Virus record (IMG/VR): IMGVR_UViG_3300040856_000134
Coordinates: 1-22,667 of that record
Reading direction: 5' to 3' (one strand)
DNA length: 22,667 nt
Source of the DNA: a virus
A program made the position numbers and the translations under genes. The notes under the pieces were generated by a model, which was not told the DNA's origin, made no database searches, and saw nothing but the letters and a program-made list of their open reading frames with translations. Shown one piece after another: positions 2,535-21,483 of this stretch (its first letter is position 1; every line of letters begins with the position of its first letter).

Positions 2535-4391
2535 ATGGCAGGTTATACTAGACAATCCTCATTCGCTGATGGTGATATTATTCAGGCATCAGACTTTAAT
2601 GATGAATATAACCAACTAGTAAACACATTTGATAATACCACAGGTCACTCACACGATGGCACTAGTGGTGAAGGTCCAGTCATTGGCTTGATTGGAGACC
2701 CCGGCGTTTCTATTCCTATCAATAAAGTTGTAGTAGATGACACTAATAATCGTGTAGGTGTTTTTATAGATGCTGCGGGTGCAGGTTCATCTGTTGAACA
2801 GGTACGTTTTGAAGATGGTGTTATTTTACCTGTAACAACAAACGATGTTGATTTAGGTTCTGTAACAAACCAATATAAAGATGCTTATTTTTCTGGTAGT
2901 TTAAATGTAGCTGGTATTAGCGTTGGTGGGGGTTCTAGTATTGGGACTGTACTTGATGAAGATGATATGGTTTCTGATTCAGATACTTCTATTGCTACGC
3001 AGCAATCAATTAAAGCCTACGTAGATGCACAGGTAACTGCACAGGACTTAGATGTTGCTGCAGATACAGGCACTGCTGCTGTTGACCTTGACAGCCAGTC
3101 ATTTACTGTAACTGGTGGCACAGGCATTGATACATCAGCTACAGGTCAAACTGTAACTATTGATATTGACTCTACAGTAGCTACTTTAACAGACACACAG
3201 ACACTCACAAATAAAACTATTGATGCAGCTAGTAACACACTATCTAATATAGACACTACTATGCTTGCTGCAGGTGTACTTGACACTGACCTTACATCCG
3301 TATCTCTTACAGATGATACCATTCCATCGGCTAAAGCCACTAAAGATTATATTGATACACAACTTACTGCAGAAGATTTAGACTTTCAAGGTGATACTGG
3401 TGGCGCACAAAGTATTGACCTAGATAGTCAAACACTCACTATTGCTGGTGGTGTAGGTATTGATACTACAGGTTCAGCACAGACTCTTACTATTGATATT
3501 GATAGCACTGTAGCTACCCTTACTGGTACGCAGACGCTTACCAACAAGACGCTTACAGCCCCTGTAATCAACACCATCAGTAATACTGGTACTATTACCC
3601 TACCGACTAGCACAGACACGCTTGTAGGCCGTGCTACAACGGATACTCTGACAAATAAAACCTTGACAAGTGCGGTGCTTGACGGTACAATAAGTGGAAC
3701 TTCTATTAAAGATGAAGATACAATGGTATCTGACTCTGCTACACACTTAGCTACACAACAATCTATTAAGGCTTATGTAGACTCACAAGTGGGTGCTATT
3801 CCTCTTGGTGATATTACAGAAGTAACTGCGGGAACAGGTTTATCTGGTGGCGGTACTAGCGGTGCAGTAACTCTTGATATTGACAGCACTGTTACTACCC
3901 TTACGGGTACACAAACACTTACAAACAAAACTTTAACCAGTCCAACAATTGATTTGTCAACAATAACATCTGCCGGTGATTTGGCAGTAGCAGATGGTGG
4001 TACAGGAGCAAGCAACGCTTCTGATGCACGTACTAATCTTGGCATAGCAATTGGTACAGACGTACAAGCCTATGATGCAGAACTCGCAGCACTGGCTGGA
4101 TTAACATCAGCGGCAGATAAAGGTATACAGTTCACAGGTGCGGGAACAGCGGGTACTTATGATTTAACAACAGCAGGTAAAGCACTACTTGATGACGCTG
4201 ACGCTGCAGCACAACGTACTACCCTTGGTTTGGGTACAGCAGCTACTTTAAATATAGGTACAAGTGCAAATAATATTGTACAATTAGACGGTACTGGAAA
4301 ACTACCAGCAGTAGACGGTTCACAGTTAACTAACCTCACCATAACAGAAACAGACCCAACAGCACTAGCATTTGCTATTGCGTTAGGTTAG
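2535..4391 (+). CDS. Main tail fibre protein with TQTLTNKT-type repeats
   Basis: 618 residues. The first 50 ('[20 protein letters not shown]', then '[12 protein letters not shown]') match the attachment domain of podovirus tail fibres, which binds the tail. The shaft is repetitive: TQTLTNKT or a close variant at residues 221-228, 332-339, 369-376 and 459-466; '[11 protein letters not shown]' at 154-164 and 406-416; and '[12 protein letters not shown]'-like strands before the TQTLTNKT copies. Residues 512-530 ('[19 protein letters not shown]') are a common fibre shaft motif. It is Thr/Asp/Gly-rich, as expected for a trimeric beta-structured fibre. There is no obvious C-terminal receptor domain or self-cleaving chaperone; the protein ends in a short Leu/Ala tail. 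Tip proteins are probably encoded downstream. The start has AGGAG 8 bases upstream. Confidence 0.85.
3195..3932 (+). repeat. TQTLTNKT-coding repeats in the fibre shaft
   Basis: Four degenerate 24-base copies encode TQTLTNKT or TDTLTNKT, at 3195-3218, 3528-3551, 3639-3662 and 3909-3932. Three of the four follow an 'IDSTV-TLT' strand. A fifth copy (TQALTNKT) is at 4872-4895 in a different gene. The peptide is conserved while codons vary, so this is an old, selected repeat and not recent slippage. Confidence 0.8.
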
Positions 4392-18336: not shown

Positions 18337-18362
18337 AAGAGGGGGCAATTAAGCCCCCTTTT
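18337..18362. terminator. Bidirectional hairpin terminator between convergent operons
   Basis: GGGGGC (18341-18346) pairs with GCCCCC (18353-18358) around the loop AATTAA, with A/T-rich flanks (AAAAGA on the left, TTTTCT on the right after CCCCC) lengthening the stem. Read on the plus strand it ends in TTTTCT; on the minus strand it ends in TCTTTT. It therefore suits both the structural operon ending at 18333 and the mazG gene ending at 18366. Confidence 0.9.
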
Positions 18363-18365
18363 CTA

Positions 18366-18692
18366 TTACCTGTTATCTCCACTACCACCTAGCATACCCC
18401 TAGATTTCCTGTCTGCAAGTTTCTCCAGATTATCTTCCATAACTCTACCAAGGTTAACTCCTAGTTCTTGTGCTAGTACAGCAATATACCAACAGACATC
18501 ACCTAACTCTTTCGTAATCTCTGCACGTTTAGCGGGGTTATCTCCATCACGTATCAGCTTCTTAGCCTTGTTAGCAATCTCACCTGCCTCACCCGCCAGT
18601 CCTAACGTCAAGTACGCTAGGGCTGTTTCTTTTGGGAAGATAGCTGTTTCACAAGCCTTCTGTTGATATAGTGCTGCTGTAATGCCACTCAT
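18366..18692 (-). CDS. mazG: MazG-type nucleotide pyrophosphohydrolase
   Basis: 108 residues from the chosen start. 'LTLGLAGEAGEIANKAKK' and 'ELGDVCWYIAVLAQELG' are the two MazG helices; the metal ligands form E35xxE38 and E62xxD65, with the family's expected spacing. The enzyme hydrolyses (d)NTPs to monophosphates and pyrophosphate. In phages it is thought to tune nucleotide pools; a proposed action on ppGpp was not supported for a cyanophage enzyme. I chose ATG 18692 because AAGGAG sits 7 bases before it, it does not overlap the upstream gene, and it matches where phage MazG proteins usually begin. ATG 18740 would add 16 Lys/Glu-rich residues and overlap that gene by 26 bases. It is last in the minus-strand operon. 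Confidence 0.9.
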   Translation of the reverse strand: MSGITAALYQQKACETAIFPKETALAYLTLGLAGEAGEIANKAKKLIRDGDNPAKRAEITKELGDVCWYIAVLAQELGVNLGRVMEDNLEKLADRKSRGMLGGSGDNR

Positions 18693-18714
18693 TTGTTTCT
18701 CCTTCATCCACTGT

Positions 18715-18921
18715 TTAACTTCTTGTTCTAGCTTCTTCATTCCGTTGTACCTTTTGTAGATTCACATGGTAGGCAGTATCCCAACCTCGCTGCCATTCCC
18801 TTGCTTGCATTGTGTTGGAATCAATTGGGCAGGTAAGTCTGCCTCGTTTAAAGGCTTCCTGTCCCCACTCAAATTGAATCCTTAATGGTGCATCGTACTT
18901 ACTCAGTCCGTTACGCCGCAT
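18715..18921 (-). CDS. Ribosome modulation factor (RMF)-like small protein
   Basis: 68 residues. The core 'WGQEAFKRGRLTCPIDSN' and 'REWQRGWDTA' reproduces the RMF signature: Gly20, Gly27, Cys31-Pro32, Arg41, Trp43, Gly46-Trp47, Ala50. E. coli RMF has the same order (Gly, Gly-Arg, Cys-Pro, Arg, Trp, Gly-Trp, Ala), with spacings that agree within 1-2 residues, and identical W-x3-W-x2-A spacing. RMF binds the 30S subunit and pairs 70S ribosomes into inactive 100S dimers in stationary phase. A phage copy could silence or protect ribosomes; small CrpP-type proteins with a similar signature are the alternative. It overlaps the nuclease gene by 11 bases, with AGGAG in the overlap region. The homology call is from motif reading only. 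Confidence 0.7.
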   Translation of the reverse strand: MRRNGLSKYDAPLRIQFEWGQEAFKRGRLTCPIDSNTMQAREWQRGWDTAYHVNLQKVQRNEEARTRS

Positions 18922-19438
18922 CCTGCATCTCCTTAATCTGGTAATTGAAAAGTTTTATTGCTGTCAGCTTGCTGATTTTAAACCATTCCCCTCTGCGTTC
19001 TTCTGCAAAGTGTTCAAAGATTTTATGCATCTCTTTTTCTTTTGAATGTCTATTATCTACTGACATTGTAGCGACTACTTTATAGTCACGGAAAGGTGAA
19101 GATGTTTGATATCCGTTAAGCCTATCTTCAGATGAGACTGCCTTGCCTACCTTTACCCACTCAGGCCATGCGGTATTGACAATGATATAGACTTCGCCTT
19201 GATTAACACTTTCAATCTTATTGTGTGACCAAGCATCGTCTAAGGACTTGTACCTTCCGGGTTTCCACAATGGGTTATTCTGTGGAATATATTTACCGTT
19301 AATATACATACGCCGCTTATTAGAATAGTTGTTATACTGCTGTGAGCAGGACTTACATTGGGTACGTCCTATATCTTTCCAAGATTCAGACCAGTTGTCT
19401 TCTGTTAATTCTATGTTGCAAGAGTTACAGGTTTCCAT
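18911..19438 (-). CDS. GIY-YIG nuclease (T5orf172/MUG113 type) with N-terminal zinc knuckle
   Basis: 175 residues. Cys4, Cys7, Cys28 and Cys31 (CNSC...CKSC) form a likely zinc-binding knuckle like that of phage HNH and GIY-YIG nucleases. Residues about 81-157 form the nuclease domain: 'GEVYIIVNTAWPEWVKVGKA' is the GIY...YIG pair in its T5orf172 form, followed by Arg106 ('RLNGYQ'), the 'KEKEMHKIF' helix with Glu residues, and 'RGEWFKI' at the end. It would cut DNA. A free-standing homing-type or a host-DNA-degrading role are both possible. It sits between the reductase and the RMF-like gene and overlaps the latter by 11 bases. The ribosome site is AAGGAG. Confidence 0.8.
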   Translation of the reverse strand: METCNSCNIELTEDNWSESWKDIGRTQCKSCSQQYNNYSNKRRMYINGKYIPQNNPLWKPGRYKSLDDAWSHNKIESVNQGEVYIIVNTAWPEWVKVGKAVSSEDRLNGYQTSSPFRDYKVVATMSVDNRHSKEKEMHKIFEHFAEERRGEWFKISKLTAIKLFNYQIKEMQDAA

Positions 19439-19541
19439 CCTTATTCTCCTTCTCTTTTTGTTTCAGTTTTTGCCACTCTTCGTAGCTAGGGTGACTACGT
19501 GGGGGGTTGAACTGTACCCAACCATCCCCACGCTTCCACAC
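19425..19541 (-). CDS. Possible 38-residue protein with GTG start
   Basis: The 113-base gap between the reductase stop and the nuclease start holds an open frame whose product looks protein-like: 'VWKRGDGWVQFNPPRSHP' then 'SYEEWQKLKQKEKENKDGNL', ending in TAA at 19425-19427. The GTG at 19541 lies 10 bases after the reductase stop, suited to re-initiation. A TTG at 19571, inside the reductase gene, would give 48 residues. It overlaps the nuclease start by 14 bases, like other genes in this operon. Against it: no ATG, and no good ribosome site. It was not recognised as a known family. Confidence 0.4.
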   Translation of the reverse strand: MWKRGDGWVQFNPPRSHPSYEEWQKLKQKEKENKDGNL

Positions 19542-19551
19542 TAACTTACCA

Positions 19552-21483
19552 CTAAGCTGCTGCGATGTCAACTATTTCACACACCCCTGCAGTACAGGCT
19601 AACTCACGCCCACCTGAAGTTGTGTCCTCTTTCTCAAAGTCACTCAGCTTAGACCAGTCTACTTTCTTAGGCATTTTCTTGTTGAACTCAGCGTACTGTT
19701 CAGCATCAATGTCCTGATAAGGTGCTTGCTGATATGTGTGTTCGCTGAATGGCAGGAAGCTAATACCAGATACTTCATCGAAGTGTTCATATACCCAAGC
19801 ACCTACATCCATCCATTCATTTTCCTTAACTGAAATTGTTACGCTAGGCTTATGTTCGCACCAATGACGCTGGTAGGTAAGCCACAGTTCAAGCTGTTCA
19901 ATGGCAGTCATTTGAGTACGTGTTACCGCACCGTTAGGTGACTTCATTGGGAAGCTAAACACTGTTGTGCTATCAGGCTTCATTACGTCAGGCTCCGCTG
20001 GGATACCTTCAGCAATCAAGAACTGTGTCAGTGGGTCTTTGTTATCGCCACGTACTGTACGAATGTAGTACGGATTGTGACGTGCATGAATACCGCTGGC
20101 TGCATCAGTAAGCTGTGACACTGTACCACTAGGCTTCACACAAGTGACAGCAGTAGACTGTGGGATTTTAAGCTGCTTAGACATTGCTTCGTTAACAAGC
20201 ACCGCCTCTGCACGTAGTATTTCAAGCGCAGTCTCTAGCTTGCCGCCAGATGTAGCTGTCAGAGTATTGTCCATAATACCTGTCAGCGACACACCAAGCA
20301 ACCGTTCTTCCTCTGTATTCTTCTGCCAAATCTTACGCAGATACTTGAAGTTAGTTAGTGTAGCTTGGAATGTACCCAAGATGGTAGCTAGTCGTACCTT
20401 CTCTTTCAGTGTAGCAAGAGTGTCTGACTCACGTACAACTACTTCTGACAAGTTACAGAACTGGTATGGACGCAAGATAATTTCACTGCAAGGATTACAC
20501 CCGAAGTCATGTTCAGTCTCACGTCTACCATTCTTAGCTGCCTGCTTCTTAGCAGACTGTCGATTGAATATGCCACGTTCACCTGACTTACTATCATACA
20601 ACGATAGCCACTCACGCATGAACGTACCCATCTCAGGCTTAGTCTTGTAAGCTACAGAGTTATTAGCCAGCGCACGTTGACCTTCATTCTCCCACCACTG
20701 ACCTGACTTGGCATGTGCCATCTGGTCATCATTGAGATTAGACAATGAAATCAATGCACTACGGCGTACACCGCCAACAACTACAACCTCACCAATCTTA
20801 CACATGATGTCGTGACATTCAATTGGATATAGCCTACGTCCAGCAGCACCCTTGAACTTCTGAATACAAAACTCAAACAGTTCTACAAGGGGCTGTGGAC
20901 CTGATGCACGACCTCCAAAGGTCTTTAGCCGTGCGCCAGCAGGACGCACTTCGCTGACATCGAACTTAGGTATTTGTCCACTGTACAGCATAGCAATCAA
21001 TTCCTTGAGTGACTTAGCCCAACCCGGACGTGAATCACCCACTTTAATTACTGTGTCTGTATCGTGGAACTCTTCGCTAACCATAGGTAGCTTCTCAATG
21101 CAGTGACGCTCAACGCTGAAGCCAACGCCAGTGCCACACATAAGAATGTACATTGACTCATCAAAGGCACGAGGGCTATCTACAGGCACGTATGAACAGT
21201 TATATCCACCTACGTGACAGCGATCCAGTGCTGGCCCAGCAGTCATCAATGCCCGCATAGAAGGCATGATAGACTGGTTAAGTACAGCTTCTTCCAGTTC
21301 ACCTCTCAGTGTATCTGGTAGCTTATAGCCGTTGTTATTAAGCAAATGGTCAGCCATATAATCAAAGTATCTTGCGACAGTTTCACCCCATGTCTCCCTT
21401 CGCTGTTCGTCTTCTTTCCATCTTGCATAGCGTGAAAGTGCTATGAAGTTCTGGTAGTCTGTTGGTAATGTATTACTAATCAT
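19552..21483 (-). CDS. nrdJ: Class II (adenosylcobalamin-dependent) ribonucleotide reductase, monomeric RTPR-like
   Basis: 643 residues. Reduces ribonucleotides (triphosphates in the Lactobacillus-type enzyme) to deoxyribonucleotides using a B12-derived radical. Active-site residues can be read: Asn330, Cys332 (radical) and Glu334 in 'FGCNPCSEIIL'; the redox pair Cys96 ('NCSYVPV') and Cys343 ('QFCNLSEV'); and the C-terminal shuttle pair Cys630/Cys635 ('ELACTAGVCEI'). The 332-343 and 630-635 spacings equal those of L. leichmannii RTPR (408-419, 731-736). The family's usual NPCGE is NPCSE here. The enzyme is complete, with no intron or inserted domain. GGAG lies 10 bases before the ATG. It needs host B12. 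The products feed phage DNA synthesis beside MazG. Confidence 0.95.
   Translation of the reverse strand: MISNTLPTDYQNFIALSRYARWKEDEQRRETWGETVARYFDYMADHLLNNNGYKLPDTLRGELEEAVLNQSIMPSMRALMTAGPALDRCHVGGYNCSYVPVDSPRAFDESMYILMCGTGVGFSVERHCIEKLPMVSEEFHDTDTVIKVGDSRPGWAKSLKELIAMLYSGQIPKFDVSEVRPAGARLKTFGGRASGPQPLVELFEFCIQKFKGAAGRRLYPIECHDIMCKIGEVVVVGGVRRSALISLSNLNDDQMAHAKSGQWWENEGQRALANNSVAYKTKPEMGTFMREWLSLYDSKSGERGIFNRQSAKKQAAKNGRRETEHDFGCNPCSEIILRPYQFCNLSEVVVRESDTLATLKEKVRLATILGTFQATLTNFKYLRKIWQKNTEEERLLGVSLTGIMDNTLTATSGGKLETALEILRAEAVLVNEAMSKQLKIPQSTAVTCVKPSGTVSQLTDAASGIHARHNPYYIRTVRGDNKDPLTQFLIAEGIPAEPDVMKPDSTTVFSFPMKSPNGAVTRTQMTAIEQLELWLTYQRHWCEHKPSVTISVKENEWMDVGAWVYEHFDEVSGISFLPFSEHTYQQAPYQDIDAEQYAEFNKKMPKKVDWSKLSDFEKEDTTSGGRELACTAGVCEIVDIAAA

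Follow-up and report, generated by a model that had tools for sequence, protein, structure and literature searches.

The question raised by this locus is whether a small open reading frame among the DNA-metabolism genes of a phage encodes a ribosome modulation factor (RMF), as its residue pattern had led a first-pass annotation to propose and, if it is a relative of RMF, whether it could act on ribosomes as RMF does. The window analysed here is the whole stretch of 22,667 nucleotides of the viral record IMGVR_UViG_3300040856_000134. Overall, the explanation we prefer, with a probability of roughly 0.45, is that the gene encodes a phage protein of the Rmf/CrpP superfamily, small and basic, which folds as a helical hairpin and keeps the RMF core.

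The Rmf-like gene and its surroundings

The open reading frame has exactly the coordinates reported in the first-pass annotation, lies on the minus strand and encodes 68 residues (MRRNGLSKYDAPLRIQFEWGQEAFKRGRLTCPIDSNTMQAREWQRGWDTAYHVNLQKVQRNEEARTRS) with a net charge of +5. The features of the locus, all on the minus strand, are the following.

18340-18359, minus: terminator-like stem-loop AGGGGGC-TTAATT-GCCCCCT, GC-rich with a T-rich flank, between the convergent structural (plus) and replication (minus) operons
18366-18740, minus: MazG-like pyrophosphohydrolase (Pfam PF03819, 5.7e-9; phrog_229, 1.1e-37), its first 26 nt shared with the 3' end of the Rmf-like gene
18715-18921, minus: Rmf-like open reading frame, 68 aa, ATG at 18921, TAA ending at 18715; counterpart of HMO-2011 gp20 (N386_gp20)
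18929-18935, minus: ribosome-binding site TAAGGAG, strong, 7 nt upstream of the ATG
18911-19438, minus: GIY-YIG type (MUG113/T5orf172) protein, its last 11 nt shared with the start of the Rmf-like gene; varies among relatives
19552-21483, minus: nrdJ, adenosylcobalamin-dependent ribonucleotide reductase (RNR; phrog_367, 1.6e-196; TIGR02505), the constant upstream neighbour

The Rmf-like open reading frame is a real gene under strong purifying selection, with a median dN/dS of 0.046 in the window's clade for codons outside gene overlaps. Relatives in IMG/VR numbered 159 in a single-sequence search, and at least 597 were confirmed in an alignment search. It follows RNR and precedes mazG at the end of the replication operon, among the DNA-metabolism genes where the first reading of the sequence had placed it, and we infer that its product is made together with the DNA-metabolism proteins. 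The sequence of the stem-loop at 18340-18359 suggests a bidirectional terminator, which its position between convergent genes makes plausible, although such patterns are no more frequent across the region than chance would give.

DNA of the nrdJ region shares 77% identity with HMO-2011 and, judged by its sequence, the window phage is of the HMO-2011 type. In HMO-2011 itself the positional counterpart, flanked by gp19 and mazG, is gp20 (YP_008320282.1), annotated 'hypothetical'. The known hosts of HMO-2011-type phages are alphaproteobacteria. Phages of this type have been reported to dominate in the ocean and to be widely spread there (PMC9038755). Elsewhere in the window, 56 nt of a structural gene (3888-3943) are 87.5% identical to the gene for the baseplate wedge in Methylophilales phages Melnitz, probably through a shared repeat-type tail motif. 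An endonuclease I in the window looks short (82 aa), but this is only a first-ATG reading, and the frame is open to the window edge.

The Rmf-like protein is a remote relative of RMF

The residue pattern on which the RMF assignment had been based is present in full and aligns with RMF (G20, G27-R28, C31-P32, R41, W43, G46-W47 and A50). Its Cys-Pro element is found in the window protein, where C31 of the loop lies at RMF C29, but the cysteine is not a trait of the family as a whole: CPI occurs in 21 of the 156 distinct members, confined to the clade of the window protein. Six residues are invariant in canonical and divergent cellular RMF/CrpP proteins, with counterparts in the window protein at G20, A23, G27, P32, W43 and G46, and the E. 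coli core residues G16, G23, P30, W40, G43 and W44 correspond to window G20, G27, P32, W43, G46 and W47.

A profile search against the RMF family, proposed at the outset as a check, gave a mixed answer: the window protein matches Pfam RMF (PF04957) with an E value of 0.0012, but its 19.3 bits are under the gathering cut-off of 27.9 bits. It also scored below the cut-offs of two NCBIfam models, with 17.5 bits against 28 for NF041886 (Rmf_CrpP_fam) and 15.4 bits against 40 for NF041887 (Rmf_like_phage); among the members of family alignment A1 the best E value with these models was 0.00085. An HMM of cellular RMF/CrpP proteins, built from an alignment of canonical and divergent cellular sequences (A4), gave the window protein 19.1 bits, a score reached by 0 of 50,000 composition-preserving shuffles (maximum 15.0 bits). 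When the same HMM was run against 11,760 six-frame open reading frames from the window and related loci, there were 92 matches, each of them (92/92) to the Rmf-like gene.

Profile-profile comparison (hhalign) of the phage family with A4 gave a probability of 91% and an E value of 9e-7. Comparison with the single E. coli RMF was weak, at 10% with alignment A1; alignment A3 gave 40%. In the reverse direction, a phage-family HMM made without any cellular RMF recovered E. coli-type RMF (E 0.002) as well as cellular proteins with RMF-like domains (E about 4e-5). A protein of Delftia phage IME-DE1 forms a bridge, being matched by both the phage-family HMM (7.6e-6) and the RMF HMM (5.7e-12). From homology in both directions and the six-residue signature, the Rmf-like protein is, as far as sequence comparison goes, a member of the Rmf/CrpP superfamily in the broad sense; it is a distant relative of RMF and no RMF orthologue.

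Several searches returned nothing. A PDB sequence search with the single protein yielded chance matches only (E 2, ACL4) and the alignment A1 profile none; PHROGs held no family for the window protein; tblastn with E. coli RMF, and likewise with a divergent cellular RMF, found no phage match; and no plasmid relatives of the Rmf-like protein were found. Weak matches of some relatives to Pfam P63C were dismissed as chance, being under the cut-off and confined to the C-terminal stretch.

Predicted structure

A first AlphaFold2 model, made from a 42-sequence alignment, has two helices and a mean pLDDT of 87. Placed on the DNA, its parts are the following.

18844-18894, minus: predicted helix 1 (residues 10-26; AlphaFold model), with G20 and A23; G27 is next
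18811-18843, minus: inter-helix loop (residues 27-37; alignment and AlphaFold model), with C31-P32
18721-18810, minus: predicted helix 2 (residues 38-67; AlphaFold model and alignment), with W43, G46 and W47, and D48 at the place of RMF R45

A plain Foldseek search against the PDB was not significant; RMF was absent among the best 50 matches listed, and none had an E value under 2. After re-alignment with VIA-align, solved RMF chains stood on top for the first model (9iot_y, Z 6.6; 2jrm, Z 6.4; 6h4n_v, Z 6.0) with 52-58 residues aligned, followed by the unrelated 8rc0_A at 5.0, with the rest not exceeding 3.2. For a second model, that of a relative whose loop carries an insertion, the RMF chains were alone at Z 6.0-6.3, and the next match had 2.6; such Z values can come from common helical arrangements, helical hairpins being simple folds. 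Over both models the RMF-chain alignments cover 52-60 residues, and the insertion of the second model is predicted to fold as a small beta-hairpin, flanked by the two helices seen in the first. Structural matches in BFVD include two phage proteins named ribosome modulation factor (from CcrBL9 and ctu2j3), both weak.

The assignment of the fold rests on the repeat with the second, divergent model and on the agreement with sequence. As modelled, the fold is the helical hairpin of RMF. The profile-profile comparison, the shuffle and real-ORF controls and the AlphaFold models thus bear out the likeness to RMF that had been claimed, in homology as well as in predicted fold, with the proviso that the homology is remote.

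Departures from RMF within the family

Mutational data on E. coli RMF show which residues matter for its known activity. Alanine changes at conserved residues abolish 100S formation; G23 and R45 matter for dimerisation but not for binding, and R45 contacts the anti-Shine-Dalgarno at C1536 (PMC8126665). The equivalent of G23 is retained in 144 of 156 distinct members of the present family. The R45 position is occupied by N in 127 of the 156, by D in 27 (D48 in the window) and by S in 2, and never by R. The W44 position is F, W or Y across the wider family. A loop proline is present as xP[FYI] in 103/156 members, and no xP[FYI] was found in the loop of 53/156.

The N-terminus differs as well. 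The basic RMF motif KRQKRDRLERA, of which R3, K5 and R11 bind 16S rRNA, is absent, although MRRNGLSKYDAPLRIQ shares some of the basic charge; it is replaced by RRNGLSKYDAPL, with the conserved motif KYDAPL, and short-form relatives have no KYDAPL segment altogether. Read from the alignments, the family keeps the hairpin core (Gly, Gly, Pro, Trp, Gly, Trp/Phe) and has lost the contact to rRNA known for helix 2 of RMF.

In other clades the loop carries an insertion of about 10-13 residues. At least three unrelated types (KGKFF..GDSGID, IKPKVERKLH and KKG.YLEHRPNMD) were seen at the same loop point in loci L033, L050, L060 and L146. Held between rigid helices, the loop looks as if it were diversifying or target-specific.

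Sampled alphaproteobacteria lack canonical RMF

The first-pass annotation had called for comparison with the rmf gene of the host. In the alphaproteobacterial genomes sampled no canonical RMF was found; they have long HPF instead. The taxon labels of the sampled genome groups are inferred from the MAG at the centre of each sample. The best RMF match was 38.9 bits in the class sample around a Rhodobacteraceae MAG (385 genomes) and 39.0 bits in the family of that MAG (149 genomes). True RMFs in the phylum sample, by comparison, scored 63-82 bits. Among 97 genomes from the order of a Pelagibacter MAG, the only RMF match lay in a phage-like contig. By this score search, canonical RMF is absent from the sampled alphaproteobacterial groups. 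The C-terminal domain of long HPF was present in 59 of 61 genomes of the Rhodobacteraceae MAG family. RMF occurs only with short HPF, and 100S formation in E. coli depends on short HPF plus RMF (PMC6746590).

Two further observations concern genome contigs. RMF-like domains (GFDAYRAGQRPADNPY...SAWENGWCEA) occur at the C-terminus of longer frames of 197 and 273 aa (L284:1081-1671 and L270:844-1662, respectively) on cellular contigs from alphaproteobacterial samples. Phage-locus contigs of the same name and size (62,825 and 55,371 bases; L164-L167) appear in both a Flavobacteriales and a Neomarinimicrobiota MAG. This double binning is an artefact and would mislead host assignment.

The constant RNR neighbour and a possible role in nucleotide metabolism

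We collected 171 distinct loci, of which 157 had at least 2.5 kb upstream and could be tested for RNR. An RNR gene lay upstream within 2.5 kb on the same strand in 157/157, as nrdJ in 131, as the CRP-212 type in 15 and as class I nrdA/nrdB in 11; mazG came next after the Rmf-like gene in 92/130. The loci were retrieved through the Rmf-like gene and not through RNR, so the RNR count is not circular, though many loci share one phage backbone. The spacing between the RNR match and the Rmf-like gene ranges from 0 to 2180 nt across relatives. The gap between the two genes (window 18911-19438 and 19425-19571; L169:4571-4996) is a hot spot in which GIY-YIG or endonuclease VII/HNH-like genes vary. In the stretches read, CRP-2, CRP-603, CRP-207, CRP-13 and CRP-738 have RNR with no Rmf-like gene detected, and HTVC033P has neither. 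The idea that the Rmf-like gene takes the place of glutaredoxin after RNR was rejected, both genes being found in several loci.

The alternative that survives best draws on this neighbourhood: the RMF fold may have been re-used in nucleotide metabolism, the protein serving the phage RNR or MazG as a small partner or regulator. The presence of RNR at every testable locus despite differing RNR types, the frequent adjacency of mazG and the loss of the rRNA-contacting arginine of RMF are consistent with such a role. However, the loci are not independent, since gene order is fixed in the one phage group that supplies most of them, the five CRP phages named above have RNR with no Rmf-like gene detected nearby, and a partner that survives swaps between unrelated RNR classes is mechanistically awkward. 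On balance we regard this role as unlikely.

How the Rmf-like protein might act on ribosomes

In the preferred explanation, that of a phage Rmf/CrpP-superfamily protein, the product would bind the host 30S close to the 3' end of 16S rRNA, in the RMF cavity or next to it. Bound as a monomer, it would either modulate initiation, with a milder or selective effect, or protect the ribosome, and RMF-type 100S dimers would not be formed. Taken as a whole, 30S binding with modulation or protection but no 100S dimers is the likeliest reading of the mechanism, though a tentative one. Ribosome-bound phage proteins have precedent (PMC10914614). Against a ribosomal mechanism count the loss of R45, the replaced N-terminus and the constant RNR neighbour, which could mean another role. 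P. aeruginosa PA3049 does not serve ribosome hibernation (PMC13411936) and is far closer to E. coli RMF than is the phage protein; fold therefore does not imply function here, and the prior is low. In a more specific proposal, a dimerisation-incompetent RMF-fold protein would target the 30S of RMF-less hosts as a dedicated mid-infection modulator of translation linked to the supply of dNTPs, and the loop hairpins peculiar to each clade would adjust the contact; this is speculative and rather unlikely.

An RMF-fold protein might also be directed at another nucleic acid or at a host-defence target, in anti-defence or takeover. The protein is small and basic, is encoded in a replication operon and has an RMF-type fold, and a variable loop with beta-hairpin insertions between rigid helices would suit a changing target. 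Yet there is no specific tie to any defence system, and the strong conservation of the helices sets the protein apart from many anti-defence proteins, so that we consider such a target distinctly improbable.

The weakest alternative is a true functional analogue of RMF, one that in the infected cell would bring host ribosomes into 90S/100S particles by dimerisation or hibernation. In its favour are the predicted RMF fold, the core residues and the strong ribosome-binding site. It is nevertheless highly improbable: no family member has R45, on which dimerisation depends (PMC8126665); RMF cut-offs are missed; such hosts have long HPF and no canonical RMF, so that the E. coli arrangement of RMF, short HPF and bS1 is missing; and the phage genes themselves use Shine-Dalgarno motifs. 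The suggestion that the phage protein dimerises ribosomes or shuts off host translation is accordingly not upheld, the basic N-terminus being absent along with R45. A general RMF-type shut-off is also unlikely since a Shine-Dalgarno-like motif of at least 4 nt precedes 22 of the 24 genes in the window, so that a blanket block of the anti-Shine-Dalgarno would hurt the phage too.

Comparison with known systems

The gene is a conserved component of a group of ocean phages reported as dominant and is annotated merely as hypothetical in the isolates examined. Should its product act on ribosomes, it would target them in hosts that have no equivalent factor, and would illustrate how an RMF fold can function when the residue for dimerisation is missing. 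Otherwise, it would be a clear case of the RMF fold re-used and a warning against naming a protein 'ribosome modulation factor' by fold only.

Compared to RMF (PF04957; E. coli Rmf, PDB 6h4n/4v8g; Vibrio, 2jrm), the family is alike in its two-helix hairpin and loop, G..A...G, loop proline, W..GW, small size and basic charge. It differs in that the phage protein falls under the Pfam cut-off, has no R45, begins with a KYDAPL N-terminus and has a longer C-terminal helix; the Gly-to-Pro spacing is 2 residues shorter in the window protein, whereas loops are about 10-13 residues longer in some relatives, and the family is encoded by phages of alphaproteobacteria. P. aeruginosa PA3049 (BatR), an RMF homologue with a C-terminal extension, is cellular and much closer to RMF. 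HMO-2011 gp20 and its counterparts in CRP-1 and CRP-345 are relatives that lie at the same RNR/mazG position and are all annotated hypothetical; gp20 differs from the window protein in having the loop insertion and lacking Cys-Pro.

Phage proteins annotated as RMF are known from Caulobacter phage CcrBL9, Agrobacterium phage Milano (PMC6588377) and Myoviridae sp. ctu2j3. They are likewise phage-encoded and carry the RMF name, but they come from other phages, their structural matches are weak (CcrBL9 and ctu2j3) and they were not found by sequence. NF041887 (named for phages) and NF041886 describe the same fold over the same aligned region (20-50), and the present family falls outside the current models. 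Phage Rmf-like proteins are thus already a named class, of which the present family is an abundant, unannotated and new variant.
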